Source of the DNA: an uncultured Methanobrevibacter sp.
GTDB lineage: Archaea; Methanobacteriota; Methanobacteria; Methanobacteriales; Methanobacteriaceae
Assembly (NCBI GenBank): GCA_902794475.1
Contig: CADBHR010000006.1
Coordinates: 1 to 39,476 of the forward strand
Length of the DNA stretch: 39,476 nt
Direction: 5' to 3'
The translations under genes were made by a program, and so were the position numbers. The first letter of the stretch is position 1. The number at the start of each line of letters is the position of its first letter. This document shows, piece after piece, positions 11,676-19,519 of this stretch. Under the pieces are notes generated by a model that saw only the letters and a list, made by a program, of their open reading frames with translations, did no database searches and was not told the origin of the DNA.

Positions 11676-12113
11676 ATGAGTAGGCAGGCCTATGTTAACA
11701 AGGATATTTCAATAACTGAAATTCGCCGTGTAAAACGTGATTTGCAGAAATTTGTGGATTTATATGAGAAAGTGACCTTTATAGAAGAGTTATATTGTGA
11801 TGAAACTGTCAAATCTGCAATGGAACGCAGGGGGAAAACTCCCCAAACAGGTTATAAATGGTTAAAAACCTGGAATGATAAGGGTTTTGATGGTCTGTTT
11901 AGAAAGGAAGGGTCCGGAAGGATTTCCAAATTGTCAGATTATCAAATAGAAATTTTAAAGACAAACATTACTGTAAAGGGTTTGTCAAGTGTCTCTGAAA
12001 TTAAAAATGAAATTAAAAGTGAATTTGGAGTTACTTACTCTGAAAGGCATTTGCGCAGGTTGATTTTTGATTTGGGTCTTTTGGACTTTATCAGTTCAAA
12101 CAAAATTAAATAA
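11676..12113 (+). CDS. Orphan helix-turn-helix protein of IS630-transposase N-terminal type
   Basis: A 145-residue basic protein with two predicted helix-turn-helix units: residues about 35-85 (the TVKSAMERRGKTPQTGYKWL region followed by WNDKGFDGLF) and about 95-140 (LSSVSEIKNEIKSEFG followed by YSERHLRRLIFDLGL). This is the DNA-binding half of IS630-type transposases. The catalytic DDE half is absent, and the 210 bases downstream hold no trace of it. It may be a truncated transposase or a domesticated DNA-binding protein. No ribosome-binding site precedes the ATG, but a TATA-like stretch lies about 25 bases upstream, so the message is probably leaderless. Confidence 0.7.
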   Translation: MSRQAYVNKDISITEIRRVKRDLQKFVDLYEKVTFIEELYCDETVKSAMERRGKTPQTGYKWLKTWNDKGFDGLFRKEGSGRISKLSDYQIEILKTNITVKGLSSVSEIKNEIKSEFGVTYSERHLRRLIFDLGLLDFISSNKIK

Positions 12114-16076: not shown

Positions 16077-16172
16077 TTTTCATCCCTTTTTTCTATTTTT
16101 TCCTTATATTATAATAAATTATTTAAAAGATTTTAAATAAATATCATATTATCTTACCTTTGGAGGAATAAT

Positions 16173-17294
16173 ATGAATAAAAGTGATTTGAAAAGAGATT
16201 ATTTTATGCTTAAGGGCCCGCTTGCCAAAAAAGGTTATGATTGGTGGTGGCATTCATTCACTGGTTACAATAAAAAAACCGGTGAAGCAAGACCATTTTT
16301 CATAGAATACTTTACATGCAACCCAGCATTGGCTGAAGACGAACCTGTCCTTGGTCAGGACCCTGAAAACCAAAAAACAGGAAAACAACCATCATATTGC
16401 ATGATTAAGGCTGGAGCATATGGTAAGGACCCAAAACAGATTCATAATTTTTACTCAATGAAATACTTCAACTGCCCTGATGATGAGCTGAACATACAGG
16501 TTGGCGATTGCAGTTTGACAGAAACCCACATGAGCGGATTTTCAAGAGTGTCTGAAGAGGATGCTAAAAATCACCCCGAATACATGTCCGATGCGGGAGA
16601 TATGATGTGGGATTTGGATATTGACAAGCAAATCACATTTAACGTGGGTTACGGTGCAAGCTCCTTATTCCGAAAATTGAATTCATTTGAAATGTTCTGG
16701 CATGCAGAGGGAATCAAAACCCAATACAGCGGTACTGTATGGCTTGACGGAGAGGAATATGAAGTGATTCCTGAAAAATCCTATGGATACGCCGATAAGA
16801 ACTGGGGAGGAGACTTCACATCTCCATGGCTTTGGATTTCATCATGCAATATAACAAGCCTTATAAGCGGTAAAAAATTGAATAACTCTGCATTTGAGGC
16901 TGGTGGAGGAAGGCCAAAGGCATTTGGTATTGAGCTTCCACGTAAACTGTTAATAGGATTTTACTACGAAGGAACAATGTATGAATACAACTTCGCCAGA
17001 TTCTGGAATATGGTCAAAATCGACTTTGATTTCCAGGAAGGTGAAGACGTTCACACATGGCATGTTAATGCAAGCAACAGAAACTCAAGAATGGAACTGG
17101 TGCTTTACTGCAAACGTGATGAAATGATGCTCTTTAACTACGAGGCACCGGATGGCAAAAAACGACACAACCGCCTATGGAATGGTGGAAGCGGATACGG
17201 CGAAATCAAATTATACAAAAAGGACGGAACATTAATTGACCATGTTAAGATAGAAAATGCGGGTTGTGAATATGGGGAGTATGATGACGAATGA
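16173..17294 (+). CDS. Tocopherol-cyclase-family protein
   Basis: A 373-residue soluble protein resembling the tocopherol cyclase family, a lipocalin-like double beta-barrel. Recognisable pieces are KGYDWWWHSFTGYNKKTGE near the N-terminus, FNVGYGAS, FEMFWHAEG, the YGYADKNWG signature at residues 204-212, and RLWNGGSGYGEIKLY near the end. Plant VTE1 closes the chromanol ring of tocopherols; homologues in anaerobic Firmicutes have no known reaction. Tocopherol is not expected in a methanogen, so the substrate is probably another isoprenoid or lipid. There is no signal peptide. A GGAGGAATAAT ribosome-binding site precedes the ATG. It overlaps the phytol-kinase-like gene by four bases, so the pair is co-translated. 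Confidence 0.72.
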   Translation: MNKSDLKRDYFMLKGPLAKKGYDWWWHSFTGYNKKTGEARPFFIEYFTCNPALAEDEPVLGQDPENQKTGKQPSYCMIKAGAYGKDPKQIHNFYSMKYFNCPDDELNIQVGDCSLTETHMSGFSRVSEEDAKNHPEYMSDAGDMMWDLDIDKQITFNVGYGASSLFRKLNSFEMFWHAEGIKTQYSGTVWLDGEEYEVIPEKSYGYADKNWGGDFTSPWLWISSCNITSLISGKKLNNSAFEAGGGRPKAFGIELPRKLLIGFYYEGTMYEYNFARFWNMVKIDFDFQEGEDVHTWHVNASNRNSRMELVLYCKRDEMMLFNYEAPDGKKRHNRLWNGGSGYGEIKLYKKDGTLIDHVKIENAGCEYGEYDDE

Positions 17295-17989
17295 TATTCA
17301 CAGACATCATAGCATTAATCATAGTATATGTTTATGTGGCGGTCATTTTTGTTGTAGCTGAAATGGTTTTAAAGACTCGCCCTGAAGTTTCACGTAAGTT
17401 TCTGCATATCATGGTAGGTAATATGATATTTGCCATGCCGTTTTTCTCAGATCCGTGGGTGATGGTATGGTTTTTAACACTGCCTATCACAATAGGGCTG
17501 TTCTTCTTGACTGAATACTCACCAATCAAAATTGAAAACAGCGTAACCGAATCAGGCCATGCATTGGGCTTGTTTTTCTATGCTTTGATTTGGACAGTAT
17601 TGATTGCAGTATTTGCAATAATCTCACCGGCAAACGACCCTAAATATTACATCTGGATTGTGGCATTGGCCATTGTTCCTATGGTATACGGTGACGGATT
17701 TGCAGCATTGATTGGTCAAAAATTCGGAAAAGTCAAATACACAGTGTTTGGAGGTACAAAATCTCTTGAAGGATCACTTACCATGTTTGTAATCACCTCC
17801 GTTATGAGTGTATTTGTCTGGATGGTTTTCACATCAATCGGATGTACAATGCCTGAATTCAATATTGTCAACATATTGCTGATTTCCGCAGTAGCAACAA
17901 TTTGTGAAGCGTTCAGTTATGGTGGAATTGACAACTTGTCAGTTCCGACAGTAACTGCAATTTTATATTATTTGGTAGCTGTATTATAG
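17291..17989 (+). CDS. Phytol/dolichol kinase-like membrane protein (CTP-dependent)
   Basis: A 232-residue protein with about six or seven membrane segments. It shows the conserved features of the phytol kinase, dolichol kinase and phosphatidate cytidylyltransferase group: SRKFLHI (residues 34-40), YGDGFAALIGQKFGK (from residue 133), FGGTKSLEGSLTMF, and a C-terminal EAFSYGGIDNLSVP. These kinases phosphorylate a polyprenol such as phytol, geranylgeraniol or dolichol using CTP. In an archaeon a likely use is salvage or modification of isoprenoid alcohols for membrane lipids or glycan carriers. It overlaps the tocopherol-cyclase-like gene by ATGA. Family membership is clear but the substrate is inferred. 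Confidence 0.78.
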   Translation: MIFTDIIALIIVYVYVAVIFVVAEMVLKTRPEVSRKFLHIMVGNMIFAMPFFSDPWVMVWFLTLPITIGLFFLTEYSPIKIENSVTESGHALGLFFYALIWTVLIAVFAIISPANDPKYYIWIVALAIVPMVYGDGFAALIGQKFGKVKYTVFGGTKSLEGSLTMFVITSVMSVFVWMVFTSIGCTMPEFNIVNILLISAVATICEAFSYGGIDNLSVPTVTAILYYLVAVL

Positions 17990-18115: not shown

Positions 18116-18367
18116 ATGGATTTAAGACAAAGAGCAGAAAAAAGAGTTGATGCAAAAATCGAATTTCAAGAAAATCTATATAAATATTTAATAGTAAATG
18201 TAATAATAGCAGTTATTTGCCTGTTATTCCTGCAAAGTTTTTGGCTATTGTTCTTTGTAATGTTTTTCTGGGGATTTGGCGTCTTAGATAAGTTTTTTAA
18301 AGCCTATTCCATTAAAGATTATCGAGAAGAAATGATAGAAAAAGAACTTTCAAAAATGGGTGAATAA
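18116..18367 (+). CDS. Small 2TM-domain membrane protein (first copy)
   Basis: An 83-residue protein of the 2TM type: a charged N-terminal helix (DLRQRAEKRVDAKIEFQ), two membrane segments (about 25-42 and 45-62) joined by a very short turn, and a charged C-terminal helix. The second segment contains FFWGFGVLDKFFKAY. Such modules are found alone or fused to histidine kinases in bacteria, and their function is unclear. It is followed at once by a paralogue. Both lie upstream of a LytTR regulator, suggesting a membrane-signalling or stress-response operon. The ribosome-binding site is AGGTG ahead of the ATG. Confidence 0.75.
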   Translation: MDLRQRAEKRVDAKIEFQENLYKYLIVNVIIAVICLLFLQSFWLLFFVMFFWGFGVLDKFFKAYSIKDYREEMIEKELSKMGE

Positions 18368-18368
18368 G

Positions 18369-18641
18369 ATGTCTGATAATTTATACAAAAGAGCTGAGGA
18401 AATAGTTGAGAAAAAAATAAAATTCTATAAGAACTTACAAGCATACCTTATTGTCAATGCATTTTTGGCAGTTATTAATTGGTTTTTCACACCGGAATTC
18501 TGGTGGGTATTGTTTCCTATGTTTTTCTGGGGAATAGGAGTATTGAAAGACTTTTTAATGGCATTTGTATTTGTCAATAAGTTTAGTGATGATTACAGAG
18601 AGCGTAAAATCAAAGAAGAAATGGAAAAATTGAAGGCATAA
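18369..18641 (+). CDS. Small 2TM-domain membrane protein (second copy)
   Basis: A 90-residue paralogue of the preceding gene with the same layout: LYKRAEEIVEKKIKFYKNLQ, two membrane segments containing NWFF and MFFWGIGVLKDFLMAF, and a charged tail, SDDYRERKIKEEMEKLKA. The start is set at the ATG at 18369, five bases after GGTGA. An in-frame GTG at 18360 lies within that ribosome-binding site and is less likely. The two copies differ in the second membrane segment and in the spacer before the last helix, so they probably form a hetero-oligomer or have separate partners. That is an inference. Confidence 0.73.
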   Translation: MSDNLYKRAEEIVEKKIKFYKNLQAYLIVNAFLAVINWFFTPEFWWVLFPMFFWGIGVLKDFLMAFVFVNKFSDDYRERKIKEEMEKLKA

Positions 18642-18644
18642 ATT

Positions 18645-19085
18645 ATGAAGGTAAACTTATTTGTTTCAAGAGATATTGAAGAGCCTTATGCAGATATTCA
18701 CACTAATGAACTGACGGACAATGTTTCAAAAGCCATATCTATTTTGGAAAGTGATGAATCGTCTGATATGGTTGCCGTAAAAAAAGGATCTGACATTGCT
18801 CTTCTGCAGATGGATGAGATATTCATGTTCAGGGTTGAAGACAAGCAGGTAAAAGTGTATTCCGAAAATAGTGAGTATATAATAAAAAAGCCATTATATC
18901 AGGTTGAGGAGACATTAAGCAGTGATTTTGTAAGAATTTCAAAAACCACTATCGTTAATCTGAAAAGGATTGACCGTGTAGCTCCTTCACTTAAGGGAAT
19001 GATGTTCATTGAGTTAAAAAATGGTTTAAAGGACAATATCTCAAGAAAATATTTGCCGGACTTTAAACAGGCTTTGGATTTGTAG
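18645..19085 (+). CDS. LytTR-family DNA-binding regulator
   Basis: A 146-residue regulator without a receiver domain. Residues about 1-45 form a small N-terminal domain. Residues about 46-146 are a LytTR DNA-binding domain, with the strands ALLQMDEIFMFRVEDKQVKV and EYIIKKPLYQVEETL and the recognition region DFVRISKTTIVNLKRIDRV. LytTR proteins are common in Firmicutes and uncommon in archaea. In bacteria, stand-alone LytTR genes are often paired with a membrane protein that restrains them. The next gene here, a DUF3021-type membrane protein, fits that pairing. The target promoter is unknown; autoregulation of this operon is typical of the family. Confidence 0.85.
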   Translation: MKVNLFVSRDIEEPYADIHTNELTDNVSKAISILESDESSDMVAVKKGSDIALLQMDEIFMFRVEDKQVKVYSENSEYIIKKPLYQVEETLSSDFVRISKTTIVNLKRIDRVAPSLKGMMFIELKNGLKDNISRKYLPDFKQALDL

Positions 19086-19093
19086 GTGAAAAA

Positions 19094-19519
19094 ATGAAAG
19101 TTGATTTGATTAAAAGATTGGCAATGGGCGCTTTTGTCGGCTGTTTTATTGTGATGCTTGTAATGGTTTTCATGTCTTTAGAAAGAGGTCCTCAAAATGT
19201 CCAATTTGATGGTATGACAATAATTAATGCATTTTTAGGTTCAATTGTTGTCGGTTGGGGATTTTCACTGACCGGATTGATCTATGAAAGGGAAGATATA
19301 GCTTTTCCTCTTCAAATTGCATTTCAAATGGGAATTGGAATGTTAATACTATTTGCAATGGCAGTTTATCTTCAGTGGATGCCGGTTAACCTGGGAATTG
19401 GAATAATCATTGAATGGATAATCATAGCATGCATATTTGCGGCCGTTTCATGGTGCGGATTTTACATCTATTATTATCTTGTCGCACGAGAATTAAATAA
19501 AAAAATAGTTAATAAGTAA
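19094..19519 (+). CDS. DUF3021-type four-TM membrane partner of the LytTR regulator
   Basis: A 141-residue membrane protein with four predicted segments (about 9-27, 42-62, 73-93 and 103-127) and a short charged C-terminus. Length, topology and position directly after a LytTR gene match the DUF3021 family. By analogy with bacterial LytTR regulatory systems it may hold the regulator inactive at the membrane until a signal is sensed. The signal is unknown. A TAGGTGAAAAA ribosome-binding site overlaps the end of the regulator gene. The stop codon lies in a hairpin shared with the convergent adhesin gene. Confidence 0.78.
   Translation: MKVDLIKRLAMGAFVGCFIVMLVMVFMSLERGPQNVQFDGMTIINAFLGSIVVGWGFSLTGLIYEREDIAFPLQIAFQMGIGMLILFAMAVYLQWMPVNLGIGIIIEWIIIACIFAAVSWCGFYIYYYLVARELNKKIVNK

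Follow-up and report, generated by a model that had tools for sequence, protein, structure and literature searches.

A candidate archaeal prenol kinase, its thymidylate-kinase-like partner and a CrtC-fold protein in Methanobrevibacter

Prenol salvage was observed more than 25 years ago, an archaeon included, and according to a 2022 review few of the kinase genes are known, all of them from photosynthetic organisms (PMC9782597). Plasmodium PolK, reported in 2024, is the first prenol kinase from a non-photosynthetic organism (PMC10849223), and proven prenol kinase genes are confined to plants, one cyanobacterium and Plasmodium (PMC9782597, PMC10849223). Archaeal geranylgeraniol (GGOH) and geranylgeranyl-phosphate (GGP) kinases are known as activities of Sulfolobus acidocaldarius (Ohnuma 1996), and the passages of two later papers that cite this work (PMC9385802, PMC9782597) describe activities without a gene. 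For the genes considered here, whose activity is predicted, a similar two-step kinase scheme in an archaeon is proposed.

The window is a stretch of 39,476 nucleotides from an uncultured Methanobrevibacter sp. Two open reading frames on its forward strand, gene 1 (16173–17294, +; 373 residues, protein P0001) and gene 2 (17291–17989, +; 232 residues, protein P0002), are real and, as the first-pass annotation had stated, overlap by 4 bp in a stop/start ATGA (17291–17294, +). An SD-like GGGGAG lies just upstream of the overlap, within gene 1. Direct reading of the sequence places a putative promoter and leader at 16100–16172 (+), with an A/T-rich, TATA-like stretch and a strong Shine–Dalgarno sequence (TTTGGAGGAATAAT-ATG) that is also present upstream of the homologue in genome G043 (L161). 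Purifying selection on the two genes is strong, with dN/dS of 0.01–0.04 for gene 1, the cyclase homologue, and of 0.05–0.10 for gene 2, the kinase homologue. The genus codes used below (g1, g9, g12 and so on) denote genome sets, of which g12 includes Methanosphaera, as judged from named loci. Outside g9, the gap between cyclase and kinase is −1 or −4 in 66 of 67 locus records, some of which duplicate genomes; in g9 genomes, 40–208 bp separate the two genes. Overlap or abutment is kept genus-wide, and the arrangement is not a chance one. Downstream of the pair (18116–19519) lie genes for a protein with a 2TM domain, another small ORF similar to it, a DNA-binding LytTR protein and a membrane protein of the DUF3021 family. 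This set of regulatory genes is bacterial in style and recurs 3′ of the pair in other g1 genomes. Upstream (11676–12113), an IS630-type transposase fragment lies among adhesin-like β-helix proteins.

P0001 matches the tocopherol cyclase family (PF14249, Tocopherol_cycl) at 43.9 bits, above the gathering cut-off of 26.6. This upholds the label 'tocopherol-cyclase-like' given to gene 1 on first reading, with the match spanning residues 167–368 only, in the C-terminal half. The AlphaFold2 model (pLDDT 92.4) predicts the two-barrel, lipocalin-like fold of the CrtC/AttH superfamily, to which all 12 matches with E < 1e-3 in a Foldseek search of the PDB belong. These matches are AttH NE1406, fungal pericyclases, kievitone hydratase (7a0q) and 25-phosphosteroid lyase (25-PSL). 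The hydratase RgCrtC requires D268, as proton donor, plus W110, W283 and W285 (PMC12402844), and by motif the residues D208, W219 and W221 of P0001 are the counterparts of D268, W283 and W285. The candidate proton donor D208 (codon 16794–16796, +), part of a GYADKNWG motif, is Asp in 42 of 43 aligned homologues and lies opposite the Asp of kievitone hydratase and of 25-PSL in a profile alignment. The candidate cation–π tryptophans of W219-x-W221 (codons 16827–16835, +) are both invariant (43/43) and align with the WTW of kievitone hydratase. As it retains the fold together with the acidic residue and the WxW tryptophans that mark terpene hydratases, P0001 is a plausible carbocation enzyme and not the empty, non-enzymatic lipocalin that the first-pass annotation had set against its own reading. 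Gene 1 is a candidate acid-catalysed terpene C=C hydratase/cyclase or lyase.

P0001 resembles CrtC carotenoid 1,2-hydratase, kievitone hydratase and 25-PSL in its fold and in keeping the Asp and the tryptophans on which carbocation chemistry relies, but identity to these enzymes is only about 10%. Its subfamily is distinct from theirs, with members in anaerobic Bacillota and Methanobacteriaceae and no known substrate assignments. With tocopherol cyclase VTE1, P0001 has in common the above-threshold match to PF14249 and an acid-WG plus WxW motif, and the homologue of Methanobrevibacter ruminantium has been entered as vte1 in an in-silico listing (PMC7772410). Unlike VTE1, it matches the family in the C-terminal half only, and its own genome (85% complete) yielded no tocopherol head-group pathway, HPPD (TIGR01263) included. 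The UbiA prenyltransferase found in that genome is an ortholog of the archaeal-lipid type. Classical tocopherol is unlikely, as had been supposed at the outset. A second PF14249 subfamily occurs in other Methanobacteriaceae (g15 and g16; L151:4318-5301 and L152:3781-4752), where it has no kinase linkage. The L151 protein is a better tocopherol cyclase match than P0001 (103.5 bits), and its acid position is occupied by Glu, whereas that of P0001 is Asp. Hydroxyarchaeol synthesis was considered as a function for the cyclase and set aside, as a literature search was unhelpful and the bacterial carriers of the homologue are not known to make lipids of this type.

The cyclase subfamily has hundreds of uncharacterised members in anaerobic bacteria; the search recovered at least 594 stretches, archaeal ones included. 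In the cyclase tree, archaeal members fall at two separate places within Bacillota, the main clade comprising g1, g9, g12 and g6 and the second genomes G025, G060 and G065, and the two positions point to at least two transfers from Bacillota to archaea. On this phylogenetic evidence, gene 1 is an acquisition from gut Bacillota, and it makes a clear case of Bacillota-to-methanogen transfer in the gut of a gene under strong constraint. In most bacterial loci the homologue stands alone, and the bacterial neighbourhoods have no common partner except at six rumen Clostridia loci (L104, L106, L108, L111, L115 and L120). There a short-chain dehydrogenase (SDR) gene comes after the cyclase homologue, joined in five of the six by one for an OYE-type enoate reductase, which suggests a terpenoid or steroid-like substrate in these rumen Clostridia.

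P0002 and its relatives match no relevant Pfam or NCBIfam family, and the kinase profile, run against the sequences of the PDB, gave no credible match. The earlier 'phytol-kinase-like' label for gene 2 must have rested on motifs, given the missing family match; it gains from the conserved residues and the fold. The AlphaFold2 model (pLDDT 87.8) has eight helices, and its only confident fold neighbour in the PDB is the CDP-DAG synthase TmCdsA. The residues R35-K36-x-x-H39 (codons 17393–17407, +) correspond to Arg29, Lys30 and His33 of the 'charged clamp' described for Plasmodium PolK (PMC10849223), and are conserved as R in 28/28, K in 27/28 and H in 28/28 sequences. Other conserved features are GDG, K..EGS, E206 and D214-N215; the g9 copies are without Glu160 of the KSLEGS motif. 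P0002 has both the RKxxH clamp and eight membrane helices with a CdsA-like core, but no curated kinase model matches it, and for that reason it is classed as working like a prenol kinase and not as a proven member. The homologue in M. smithii has been labelled in silico K18678 (PMC10939349) and 'dolichol kinase' (PMC12134362). Taken together, conserved residues, fold and published labels support gene 2 as a candidate eight-helix membrane prenol kinase of the SEC59/VTE5/PolK type. The VTE5-FOLK enzymes of plants and cyanobacteria and Plasmodium PolK resemble P0002 in their eight-helix membrane architecture, RKxxH clamp and SEC59-type motifs, and by analogy CTP-dependent prenol phosphorylation may be common to all. 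P0002 differs from them in being archaeal, in its predicted activity and lack of a curated model match, and in its operon partner, which is a thymidylate-kinase paralogue and not a VTE6-type (DUF92) kinase.

This paralogue (TMPKL), and not gene 1, is the ancestral, deeply conserved partner of the kinase. The presence table covers 139 genomes of the family, and statistics were drawn from the 78 of good quality: 50 hold both kinase and TMPKL, none the kinase only, one TMPKL only and 27 neither, so that the two occur together in 50 of the 51 genomes having either. The corresponding phi of 0.97 is not a p-value, because the genomes are related by descent; concordant presence and absence recurs within g8, within g11 and across genera. 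TMPKL adjoins the kinase in lineages without the cyclase, adjacency being found in g3, g4, g8, g11, g14, g15, g16, M. smithii-like and deep Methanobrevibacter genomes. Two further families of Methanobacteriales include 12 kinase genomes, and it is adjacent in all of them. All 13 kinase genomes of a second archaeal phylum carry TMPKL (12 within 250 bp, one about 5 kb away), and a match at the TMPKL level is absent from all 22 genomes tested there that have no strong kinase match.

TMPKL resembles thymidylate kinase (TIGR00041, PF02223) in its P-loop fold and phosphate-binding Arg. It scores 56–68 bits against TIGR00041 (dTMP kinase), below the cut-off of 83.25, whereas the canonical paralogue scores 146.5. 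Nucleoside-binding motifs are replaced in 21 of 21 aligned TMPKL sequences, DR being without its Asp, AADR without its Arg and YQ gone, while canonical enzymes keep DR in 12/12 and AADR in 11/12. TMPKL is also a second copy, as the kinase-bearing genomes that were checked hold a canonical dTMP kinase too. DUF92 (PF01940), to which the plant phytyl-phosphate kinase VTE6 belongs, is encoded by a separate gene in 76 of the 78 good genomes, and profile comparison shows it to be unlike the kinase. With DUF92 near-universal, the idea that TMPKL stands in for a missing VTE6 was rejected; by the same count TMPKL is not obviously needed as a second kinase and need not be a prenyl-phosphate kinase.

The first-pass annotation noted no prenyltransferase gene beside the pair, which is true of the window; in the ancestral setting of the kinase, a UbiA prenyltransferase flanks it. 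In the PRENYLTRANSFERASE context, UbiA is divergent to kinase–TMPKL in f2, f3, g4, g15, g16 and genome G192, and in the second archaeal phylum UbiA, kinase and TMPKL are co-directional in six genomes. The best model for the flanking UbiA is PRK12884 ('prenyltransferase'), with named GGGP-transferase models ranking next. No other strong UbiA turned up in genomes G146, G139 and G140, so that the flanking one is probably digeranylgeranylglyceryl-phosphate synthase. No paper tying kinase, TMPKL and UbiA together was found in the open-access literature. In genome G202, from another archaeal phylum, the gene of a related SEC59-like kinase is immediately upstream of one for an isopentenyl phosphate kinase (L214:3544-5388; NF040647, 177 versus 120 bits).

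It is proposed that gene 2 encodes an archaeal prenol kinase, which uses CTP (or ATP) to convert a prenol to its monophosphate, and that TMPKL would convert the prenyl monophosphate to the diphosphate. The diphosphate would then be used by the UbiA prenyltransferase, most likely digeranylgeranylglyceryl-phosphate synthase of archaeal membrane lipids, giving the sequence geranylgeraniol (or phytol or a polyprenol) to GGP to GGPP to lipid. In the lineage of the window, the kinase has left its cofH–kinase–TMPKL site and is translationally coupled behind the CrtC-fold enzyme from gut Bacillota, which probably protonates an isoprenoid double bond, by hydration or ring closure, in the same kind of substrate. 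We infer the reactions, the nucleotide and the substrate, and synteny is the basis for any functional tie between cyclase and kinase. This scheme of prenol salvage with the kinase re-coupled to a borrowed enzyme is, as a whole, about an even proposition. Its broadest form is somewhat less secure than that: in at least two archaeal phyla, UbiA, prenol kinase and TMPKL would form a module, prenyl monophosphates being turned into diphosphates by a soluble paralogue of thymidylate kinase repurposed for this step, with the prenol kinase re-wired to a Bacillota-derived terpene hydratase/cyclase in Methanobrevibacter. Kinase and TMPKL are candidate genes for the GGOH and GGP kinases assayed in Sulfolobus in 1996, and with an archaeal module of three genes that strictly co-occur, the question of the prenol kinase genes can be tested directly. 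If the proposal is right, it would supply those missing genes and show that isoprenoid salvage has a second solution besides VTE6. Lipid diphosphate synthesis would then have recruited an NMP-kinase fold, and gut methanogen genes routinely annotated as 'thymidylate kinase' or 'dolichol kinase' would need new labels.

A prenol-salvage pathway, among the possibilities first suggested, remains the best reading of the kinase, which adjoins a terpene-type CrtC-fold enzyme; the further claim that the two families act together as plant VTE5 and VTE1 do, in successive steps towards a cyclised or salvaged prenyl compound, has fared worse. Translational coupling kept across the genus and strong constraint on both genes speak for it, as does the single clade of cyclase-linked kinases over two genera, which may mean that the genes moved as a unit. 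However, the pair occurs only in Methanobrevibacter-type genomes (abutting in g1, spaced in g9), which largely bears out the warning that the genes might never be paired elsewhere. The cyclase is present without the kinase in genomes of g12, Methanosphaera included, and in G007, and the kinase is absent from all 42 bacterial cyclase loci, even at a profile E of 10. Many archaea have the kinase and no cyclase, as do G037, G041 and G042, and in G067 (99% complete) a decayed cyclase remnant lies directly before an intact kinase (G067:C4:41363-41473; L144:4295-4639). Both genes are present but far apart in G060 and G065. Among the 78 good family genomes, 39 have both genes, 11 the kinase only, seven the cyclase only and 21 neither (phi 0.52). 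Nor was HPPD found in the window's incomplete genome. The plant-like pairing was rejected as a general system, and a joint pathway of this kind is improbable here. Still more doubtful is a tandem like the 25-hydroxysteroid kinase and 25-PSL of anaerobic sterol degradation, a two-step scheme that is biochemically described (PMC8449060), in which the kinase would phosphorylate a terpenoid alcohol and gene 1 would eliminate the phosphate to give an alkene. 25-PSL is a close fold neighbour of P0001 (E 5e-7 to 3e-6) and has the D-x-x-WG motif in common with it, yet sequence similarity is weak (E 0.59), bacteria carrying gene 1 have no adjoining kinase, and the conserved partners of the kinase point to prenyl diphosphate synthesis.

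The stand-alone state of gene 1 in most bacteria, its repeated entry into archaea and its SDR and OYE-type neighbours in rumen Clostridia would also fit a self-sufficient enzyme acting on, perhaps detoxifying, a dietary or environmental terpenoid or steroid-like compound, which spread among rumen and gut microbes and landed before the kinase by chance. The tight −1/−4 spacing suggests instead selection for coordinated expression, and the cyclase adjoins the kinase also in the divergent lineage G025, in the order cyclase–kinase–TMPKL; such hitch-hiking is possible, though short of an even prospect. Gene 2 might otherwise be a dolichol-, archaeol- or diacylglycerol-type lipid kinase, serving carrier recycling or phospholipid turnover and supplied by TMPKL as an unusual kinase of nucleotides. 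SEC59, Dgk1 and VTE5 are not known to be distinguishable by sequence motifs, and the CDP-DAG synthase fold neighbour and the 'dolichol kinase' annotation in M. smithii (PMC12134362) would agree with such a role. It is nevertheless unlikely, given the loss of nucleoside-binding motifs in TMPKL, the canonical dTMP kinase in the genomes checked and a UbiA neighbour whose family uses prenyl diphosphates.

The arrangement in the window is a derived one. M. smithii-like (L140, L141) and deep genomes have the order cofH–kinase–TMPKL, whereas in the window's own genome cofH and TMPKL abut (L175:2974-4642, contig C102) and the kinase is elsewhere. Trees of both genes, as the first-pass annotation had advised, place the cyclase within Bacillota and unite the cyclase-linked kinases of g1 and g9 in one clade (support 99/99.5), monophyly of the g1 kinases being rejected (p-AU 0.001). 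In the TMPKL tree, g1 and g9 each form one clade, following the genera. As TMPKL tracks the genera while the cyclase-linked kinases form a cross-genus clade, the latter were probably exchanged between genera, perhaps together with the cyclase. The kinase of M. smithii is carried, with cofH and comD, on a 2.9-kb segment that excises as a DNA circle. One border of the segment lies inside the thymidylate-kinase gene, and the circle has been reported in vesicles (PMC12134362).
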